From NCBI RefSeq assembly GCF_008831545.1, contig NZ_CP044523.1:3100001-3164000 (forward strand): a DNA stretch of 64,000 bases, written 5' to 3'. The notes beneath the pieces were generated by a model, which worked only from the letters and a program-made list of their open reading frames with translations, did not search any database and was not told where the DNA came from. Made by a program: the position numbers and the translations under genes. This document shows positions 9,043 to 10,342 of the stretch, piece by piece. Each line of letters begins with the position of its first letter. Within the stretch, counting starts at the first letter, position 1. The stretch comes from Halorussus halophilus. GTDB taxonomy: Archaea; Halobacteriota; Halobacteria; Halobacteriales; Haladaptataceae.

Positions 9043-10035
9043 TCAGAAGACGAACCGAGCGACCAGTAGCGACACCACGCTGGCGAGGACGAGCGAGAGC
9101 AACAGCACGCCGACCGGTCGAAGCCCCGTCCGACGGAAGTCAGAGAGTTCGGTGTTCATGCCGAGACCGGCGAACGCCAGCAGAAACAGCCAGTGGTACG
9201 CGACTGACACTCGTTCGACGTCGGTGGGCGAGAGCAGACCGACGTTCGCGGCGACCAGCAGCGCGACGAACCCGAGGACGAACTTGGGGAACCGACGCCA
9301 CATGCGCCGGAGGTGGGAGAGACCCACCGACGAGTCGCCGCCGGTGTCGGTGTAGCGAATGGAGTACGCGACGACGACGACGCCGAGCAACACGTTTCGG
9401 GTCAGTTTGGTGAGCGTCGCCCACTGGCCGGCCACGTCGGAGTACGCGAATCCCGCGGCCGTGACGGGGCCGGTGCTGAACATGCTGAGCCCTGCCCAGA
9501 TGCCGAACAGTTGGTCGGAGAGGTGCAAAGAGCGGCCGACTACCGGGAACGCGAACAGTGTGACGGCGTCGAACAGGAGGACGGTGCTGGTCGCGTACGC
9601 GATGCTCTCCTCGTCGGCGTCGATACTGCCAGCGACGGCGACGACTGCCGAGACACCACAGATGCTCGCCCCTGCCGCCAACAGCGACCCGAGTCGGTCG
9701 GAGAGGCCGAACACGCGCCGAGAGAGTACCTCGACGACTGCGACGGTGAACGCGACGATGCCGACGACGGTGACTATGAGGGGAACGCCCGCCGCCAGGA
9801 CGGCGTCCAGCGAGACGCGAACGCCCATCAGGACGATGCCAGTTTCGAGCCAGAGTTTGTACGTCTCGACGCCGGACTCGAATCGGGACGGGACCCCGTA
9901 GCCGTTAGCCAGCAGGAGTCCACAGAAGACGGCGACCAGCAACGCGTTCGCGCCGACGAAGTGGGCGACCGCTTCGCTAACCGCGCCGATAGCGACTAAC
10001 AGGCCGATTCCGGGGAGGAGCGTTCGGAGAGACAT
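9043..10035 (-). CDS. YeiH/UPF0324 family putative sulfate exporter
   Basis: A 330-residue membrane protein with about ten hydrophobic segments. It carries the YeiH-family pattern: LLLANGYGVPSRFESGVE near the N-terminus, ETGIVLMGVRVSLD, GASICGVSAV and a C-terminal FAGLGMNTEL. Bacterial members are proposed to export sulfate or related anions, partly by context (often near LysR/CysB). I start at ATG 10035 (MSLRTLLPGIG). The frame continues 84 codons upstream, but that part is Ser/Gly-rich, unlike the family, and overlaps a better small ORF in another frame. The small ORF ends four bases before this start, so the two are probably cotranscribed. Confidence 0.88.
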   Translation of the reverse strand: MSLRTLLPGIGLLVAIGAVSEAVAHFVGANALLVAVFCGLLLANGYGVPSRFESGVETYKLWLETGIVLMGVRVSLDAVLAAGVPLIVTVVGIVAFTVAVVEVLSRRVFGLSDRLGSLLAAGASICGVSAVVAVAGSIDADEESIAYATSTVLLFDAVTLFAFPVVGRSLHLSDQLFGIWAGLSMFSTGPVTAAGFAYSDVAGQWATLTKLTRNVLLGVVVVAYSIRYTDTGGDSSVGLSHLRRMWRRFPKFVLGFVALLVAANVGLLSPTDVERVSVAYHWLFLLAFAGLGMNTELSDFRRTGLRPVGVLLLSLVLASVVSLLVARFVF

Positions 10036-10039
10036 CGGA

Positions 10040-10186
10040 TTAGAGGAGTGCGAAGACGAGGACGACGAGAAGCCCAAAGAACACGGCGCGCCAACCGCGT
10101 CCGAGGGAGTCCCACCCGCGTCCGAAGGAGTTCCAGCCGTGTTCGAGAGCGTCCAAATACGTTCGTAGCCACTGTATCCCGAGCAT
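10040..10186 (-). CDS. 48-residue single-span membrane protein (micro-ORF)
   Basis: ATG at 10186 to TAA at 10040 encodes 48 residues. The N-terminal half is amphipathic with a tryptophan-containing direct repeat (GWNSFGR, GWDSLGR, GWRA). The C-terminus is one hydrophobic span (VFFGLLVVLVFALL) running to the stop. Third positions are mostly C/G. It lies four bases upstream of the YeiH-type exporter on the same strand, so it could be a small accessory subunit. No known family is recognised. Confidence is limited because such short frames can occur by chance. Confidence 0.6.
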   Translation of the reverse strand: MLGIQWLRTYLDALEHGWNSFGRGWDSLGRGWRAVFFGLLVVLVFALL

Positions 10187-10306
10187 ACTCGACCTACGCG
10201 AATGTAGTCCTCAATCGCCAGCGACTGCCGTGTTGGTTCACCGCGATACCACCGAACGACGTTCGAACTGCGCGAGTTCGGCGGCACGGTTGCGGGTCAT
10301 TCTTAC

Positions 10307-10327
10307 GATAATCATTATCGTGATAAT
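10307..10327. promoter_or_regulatory. Palindromic GATAAT cluster resembling a Fur box
   Basis: Three copies of GATAAT occur within 21 bases: GATAAT, a single C, the inverted ATTATC, two bases, then GATAAT again. The inner part, with one flanking base each side, is a perfect 8-1-8 palindrome (10305-10321, starting acgataat). This arrangement is the hexamer pattern of bacterial Fur boxes and stands out in GC-rich surroundings. It lies about 120 bases upstream of the micro-ORF/YeiH unit and just past the end of hyuB. It may be an operator or promoter element of the exporter unit; a terminator for hyuAB is possible but there is no GC stem. Confidence 0.45.
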
Positions 10328-10342
10328 GACTTAGATGTTCGG

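Follow-up and report, generated by a model that had tools for sequence, protein, structure and literature searches.

A small single-span protein conserved directly upstream of YeiH-like transporters in haloarchaea, and its possible role as a detached first helix

A 48-codon open reading frame (ORF) that precedes a YeiH-like transporter gene in Halorussus halophilus belongs to a family of small proteins that is conserved among haloarchaea, linked to the transporter gene and under selection at the protein level, and a promoter-like signal is found before the small gene and not before the YeiH gene. That this ORF is a real gene, widely conserved and travelling with the exporter, is well supported by comparison of sequences. 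The product is probably a dedicated partner of YeiH and a subunit of it, which would act as a detached first helix. A broader proposal is advanced tentatively: in a haloarchaeal clade of putative sulfite exporters, the first scaffold helix may be the product of a gene of its own, a protein of 26-71 residues. The exporter would then be a natural 'split transporter', the detached helix of which apparently pre-dates haloarchaeal diversification, was lengthened by heptad (Trp) repeats in certain species and later disappeared from others.

The window analysed is a 64,000 nt stretch of the H. halophilus genome (NZ_CP044523.1, positions 3,100,001 to 3,164,000). The small ORF is on the minus strand at 10040..10186, with an ATG at 10186 and a TAA at 10042-10040, and predicts the protein MLGIQWLRTYLDALEHGWNSFGRGWDSLGRGWRAVFFGLLVVLVFALL. 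An in-frame TGA lies 27 nt upstream of the ATG with no further ATG, GTG or TTG in between, and the TAA is followed, after only the four bases TCCG, by the ATG at 10035 with which the YeiH-like gene starts. The window sequence thereby confirms the earlier note, which had described a 48-residue frame ending four bases before the YeiH-like start. The single C-terminal span claimed there is present as a hydrophobic segment, predicted from hydropathy to cover residues 34-48 (AVFFGLLVVLVFALL; 10043..10087, minus strand), and the highest 17-residue hydropathy of the protein, 2.47, is at the C-terminus. Arginines are found before this segment and none after it, which suggests an N-inside topology. The codon bias that had been reported is genuine and modest, the in-frame score being 0.17 per codon, compared with a mean of 0.52 (minimum 0.09) for 42 stretches of neighbouring genes and a maximum of -0.14 for 84 off-frame stretches. 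The gap behind a hydantoinase-type gene contains, approximately 110-145 nt 5′ of the small ORF, an AT-rich inverted repeat of 35 bp (10296-10330; 17-nt arms, 88% complementary), which is a candidate operator or terminator-like element.

The downstream gene (9043..10035, minus strand) predicts a transporter of 330 aa that belongs to Pfam PF03601, matching over residues 9-309 with 210.9 bits (curated cut-off 24.5). Its score of 112.3 bits against TIGR00698 is below the NCBIfam cut-off of 232.6, and the protein is therefore referred to as YeiH-like, being a non-member by that rule. The ORF in the YeiH frame opens further upstream at a GTG (10287) and overlaps the small ORF, as the earlier note had observed. 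However, this 84-residue extension looks non-coding, because in a comparison with 175 YeiH loci it has no relative beyond the window's own copy (next E value 0.53) and 126 of the 175 have a stop in the YeiH frame within 84 codons 5′ of the predicted start. A second YeiH is encoded in the same genome on a 219 kb contig (C3, 153863-155022) and is 58% identical to that of the window (genome G000; loci L065 and L174). It has its own small partner of 52 aa ending in PVPW, so both YeiH copies of this genome are partnered. With YeiH as the query, no match was found among solved structures, and a scan of viral contigs gave no relative.

Sulfite as the cargo of the haloarchaeal exporter is inferred from bacterial YeiH and from family membership. 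According to the available portions of PMC12880088, YeiH of Salmonella confers resistance to sulfite stress and is predicted to have nine helices and a pair of broken helices. Its membership of the same family favours a function of the large partner in relation to sulfite, but those portions do not mention a small partner protein, and the YeiH of the window falls below the TIGR00698 cut-off. On some haloarchaeal plasmids (L219, L227 and L229) YeiH adjoins either a pair of UxaA-family hydrolases (L219 and L229) or a sulfurtransferase (L227). These neighbours hint at the breakdown of sulfur compounds. A role in sulfonate breakdown was considered from them and dropped, the hydrolases having given only sub-threshold matches to the NCBIfam galactarate dehydratase model.

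When the single small-protein sequence was searched against 59 related genomes, matches beyond the window itself were weak (E 0.006 to 0.9), and many of them were located just 5′ of YeiH. Inspection of the DNA 5′ of YeiH at 30 loci revealed small ORFs with a shared core at most of them. An alignment of 27 small ORFs (A1), which includes that of the window, the second copy of the genome and one from a genome of the same phylum, was used as a profile against 391 genomes of the class. Matches at E ≤0.1 were found in 257 genomes, the weakest of which are likely to be due to chance. Among the best 150 matches (E up to 2.9e-9), all 150 are directly 5′ of a YeiH gene and on the same strand, and the synteny with YeiH in other haloarchaea that the earlier note had proposed as a check is thus found. 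In 103 cases the match adjoins a YeiH place already identified by the YeiH search (five of these from the 59-genome search). The other 47 were all YeiH-adjacent once their surroundings were fetched; 46 are in genomes whose YeiH ranked below those listed, and one is in a genome with a listed YeiH elsewhere. When the search was widened to 294 genomes from the phylum, a set that includes members of the class, it added one further good case beyond the class, a 26-residue version next to YeiH in G437 (MDRGWIAFLFGLIIISAILLGLKVPW), and one weak match with an internal stop in G641. No Pfam or NCBIfam model matched any of the 27 members scanned, the best E values being 0.026 (Pfam) and 0.062 (NCBIfam), for one member each. 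In nine haloarchaeal plasmid records the small ORF is annotated as 'hypothetical protein' in four and is missing from the gene table, which describes itself as incomplete, in five, bearing out an earlier expectation of annotation errors elsewhere.

Members of the family share the core W-x2-L-[DE]-R-[GD]-W-x-[AS]-V-x2-G followed by one span. Across 134 members picked by profile match, the first Trp is conserved in 94%, Leu in 95%, Asp or Glu in 96%, Gly or Asp in 100%, the second Trp in 98%, Ala in 81% or Ser in 16%, and the final Gly in 84%. A hydrophobic stretch with a 17-residue hydropathy of ≥1.6 follows the core in 127 of 139 small proteins, and 54 of the 139 end in PW. With start codons assigned by rule, lengths range from 26 to 71 residues (median 46). 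The window member is atypical in carrying a GW/GRGW/GRGW repeat, which the earlier note had pointed out. This repeat is real and is also visible in the DNA as a 21-nt tandem repeat of 3.0 copies with 76% matches (10091..10154, minus strand), which encodes the heptads EHGWNSF, GRGWDSL and GRGWRAV. Of the three repeated Trp residues, that of the last heptad, W32, is the one aligned to the second Trp of the core, which is near-invariant across the family. A separate heptad expansion, LDRGWRR-LNRGWRR-LDRGWQA, is present at the equivalent place in L092 (G066).

The small ORF frame is under purifying selection at the protein level. From 386 pairs of small ORFs that differ at 4-25% of their DNA, 36 disjoint pairs were sampled, and over the last 28 codons (34 of the 36 pairs usable) pN/pS is 0.33 (bootstrap 0.25-0.41), with 81, 56 and 161 changes at the first, second and third codon positions. 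The same DNA gives 1.37 and 1.97 in the other two frames, and the first ~80 codons of YeiH give 0.29 (28 usable pairs). A value of 0.49 over up to 60 codons takes in sequence before the start and was replaced by that for the last 28 codons, and an upstream control of 4 pairs was unused. Instead of the frame-disrupting changes between species that the earlier note had said to look for, the frame is therefore maintained.

An ATG start is assigned by rule at 132 of 139 loci. Averaged over 132 loci, AT content reaches 0.62 approximately 30 nt before the start of the small gene, compared with ~0.34-0.46 further 5′, a pattern that a TATA-like element of a leaderless transcript would produce; no comparable peak precedes the YeiH starts. 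The window's own copy has no clear TATA-like stretch at -30. The distance from the stop of the small ORF to the predicted YeiH start has a median of 11 nt, is ≤30 nt at 124 of 139 loci and is ≤0 at 22 of 139. The paired alignment of small proteins with YeiH comprises 113 pairs. Distances between small proteins track the distances between the YeiH proteins that they accompany (r 0.81; within YeiH clades 0.73-0.76, a level reached by none of 500 shuffles), a correlation that is expected from the co-inheritance of linked genes and is by itself no proof of contact.

YeiH genes were found in 234 of the 391 genomes of the class, and Haloferax volcanii has a PF03601 gene. The 155 YeiH places examined are the 150 best listed for the class and five from the 59-genome search; they represent the part of the class total that is closest in sequence to the YeiH of the window. 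The small ORF is intact at 125, degenerate or interrupted at 10 and absent from 20, which indicates that YeiH is able to do without the small protein. One of the top A1 matches is carried by each of 103 of the 155, and the frame is open over the core in 102 of these and interrupted in one (G019 contig 11). The other 52 loci include 23 with an intact small ORF, 9 with a degenerate one and 20 with none. Copies were classed as degenerate by eye on the loss of Trp or hydrophobic residues; next to YeiH these retain an open frame with Trp to Arg changes and missing hydrophobic residues, which looks like decay under relaxed selection. Degenerate copies were recorded at L008, L030, L032, L126, L133, L135, L136, L138, L141, L148, L149 and L167, and an interrupted one at L322. 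When hydrophobic ORFs were sought at the 20 loci without the small ORF, the one strong candidate was in L140. A common upstream hydrophobic frame (GAGDEWEVVG..VVVV) in L140 and L216, both without the small ORF, is perhaps a diverged or an unrelated ORF. In L152, L153 and L154 (G281, G419 and G395) YeiH is duplicated ~5 kb apart, with the small ORF next to one copy and absent at the other.

A tree of PF03601 proteins (43 rows, 18 of them haloarchaeal; unrooted and with no outgroup) resolves three groups, each on one side of a well-supported branch: the haloarchaeal proteins together with that of G437, the proteins with 11 spans, and the remaining proteins with 9 spans. The haloarchaeal and 11-span groups are joined by midpoint rooting only. 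YeiH of G437, itself accompanied by a small partner, branches as sister to all 18 rows from haloarchaea, and four rows that lack the partner are nested inside these, so the pair looks ancestral. This arrangement suggests that the small partner was present in the ancestor and was lost at least twice (three times on the tree as drawn, in which one fork is weak). An early transfer of the small protein/YeiH pair may instead account for the distribution.

Transporters in PF03601, the Putative Sulfate Exporter family, occur in a 9-span form and an 11-span form (PSE_2). According to PMC8396727, the 11-span form has two additional helices at its N-terminus and is otherwise like the 9-span form; a table of that paper predicts PSE_2 to be N-inside. 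Haloarchaeal YeiH is without both extra helices and starts at the first helix of the core, and so is not of the 11-span form. The small ORF could supply at most one of the two. The 11-span proteins of archaea and bacteria have a common start resembling W-S-S-L-W-K-K-E-D-W-W-A-F-W-L-G, in which the first extra helix reads EDWWAxWxG. The small-protein sequence W-x-x-L-E-R-D-W-Q-A-V-V-L-G aligns to this start after a gap of two residues, and HHalign gives the same alignment with a score of 18.5, a weak match (probability 21%). The N-terminal segment is the best of 23 along the 11-span protein (others ≤16.1), with a segment of haloarchaeal YeiH scoring nearly the same (18.0, one of 16). None of 200 column shuffles reached 18.5 (maximum 15.6), which is a lenient control because shuffling breaks up the hydrophobic block. 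Of five 11-span proteins, four have their single best profile match at the N-terminus, with E 0.14 to 1.3, whereas that of the fifth is at another site. In a comparison over the whole length of the 11-span proteins, the best local match was in the core (LDR-x2-AA, 17.2) and not at the N-terminus. Homology between the small protein and the first helix of the 11-span form is thus only suggestive. In L222, a plasmid of Hymenobacter volaticus, an N-terminus of the 11-span type and a transporter core are in different frames (1042-2475) with no CDS listed; judged by its reading frames, this gene is broken or misread.

In the preferred explanation, the small ORF would be translated as the first cistron, coupled to YeiH. 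The product would bind YeiH; its Trp-bearing N-terminal amphipathic helix would lie at the cytoplasmic face, and a single helix would cross the membrane from inside to outside. It would most likely be equivalent to, and replace, the first extra N-terminal helix that 11-span members of PF03601 carry in-chain, bracing the exporter scaffold. A small subunit of the transporter, as the earlier note had put it, is the best reading of this putative role, although 30 of the 155 loci have no intact copy. Two features of a small auxiliary transporter subunit, a predicted single span and genetic linkage to the large partner, are found.

Alternatively, the small protein may be a regulator that binds YeiH and tunes or stabilises it, much as AcrZ does with AcrB, and may have neither ancestry in the first helix of the 11-span form nor equivalence to it. 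Such a regulator would fit the linkage, the selection and the membrane span equally well. Its absence from some lineages is as expected of a modulator, and in statistical terms the small protein resembles the 11-span helix only weakly. Nevertheless, a detached helix accounts better for the position immediately N-terminal to YeiH, for the D/G-W-x-A-x-x-x-G motif and for the lack of the extra helices in haloarchaeal YeiH, and a regulator of this kind is considered unlikely. Still less probable is a leader peptide or coupling device, in which the ORF is translated to control yeiH or to deliver ribosomes to it and the product itself does little. The location of the ORF directly 5′ of YeiH, with no gap at some loci, and the promoter-like signal before it are in keeping with this. 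However, coupling alone needs no conserved Trp motif and membrane span at such a low pN/pS, the length of the ORF is variable, and its span is C-terminal, whereas known membrane arrest peptides have N-terminal spans. ORFs of ≥30 aa are common in G+C-rich DNA such as this, 55 of them overlapping the surrounding 6-kb stretch, and the mere presence of the small ORF is thus no proof of a gene; nonetheless, the conserved frame, motif and place refute a chance origin, the likelihood of which is negligible.

Titles and abstract openings within one paper collection do not name the small protein. The archaea section of PMC10903887 names only Sec61 subunits and lists most conserved archaeal small membrane proteins as hypothetical, and the family may be among these unnamed entries; the terms sulfate export, haloarchaea, halo and YeiH are all absent from the main text of that paper. 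The small proteins described here form a previously unrecognised family that occurs in a large proportion of the haloarchaea and is tied to a single transporter family. If the small protein does supply the N-terminal helix that YeiH lacks, a comparison of the split form with the 9-span and 11-span forms would provide a ready test of the role of that helix, and YeiH expressed alone from most of these haloarchaea would be incomplete.

AcrZ, CydX and KdpF are each smaller than 60 aa and have one membrane helix, and the genes for KdpF and CydX are linked to that of the large partner. The small ORF is similarly linked to the gene for its large partner, with no sequence relation to KdpF or CydX claimed. 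In the available portions of PMC7267776 (AcrZ) and PMC6005532 (CydX), these proteins are likewise small single-helix partners of transporters or membrane enzymes; again no sequence relation is claimed, and binding of the small protein to YeiH is putative. The N-terminal helix of PSE_2 (PMC8396727) is a further close parallel to the small protein. Both have W-x-x-L and then D/G-W-x-A-x-x-x-G at the membrane entry with one span, and both precede the core of a transporter of PF03601, the N-inside orientation being predicted for PSE_2 and inferred for the small protein. The PSE_2 helix differs in being in-chain and in its spacing, the second Trp being two residues further from W-x-x-L. It is also followed by the second extra helix, which is absent from haloarchaeal YeiH, and its profile similarity to the small protein is weak. 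Small single-span partners of transporters are already known as a kind, of which a separate protein replacing the N-terminal helix of a transporter family would be a new form.
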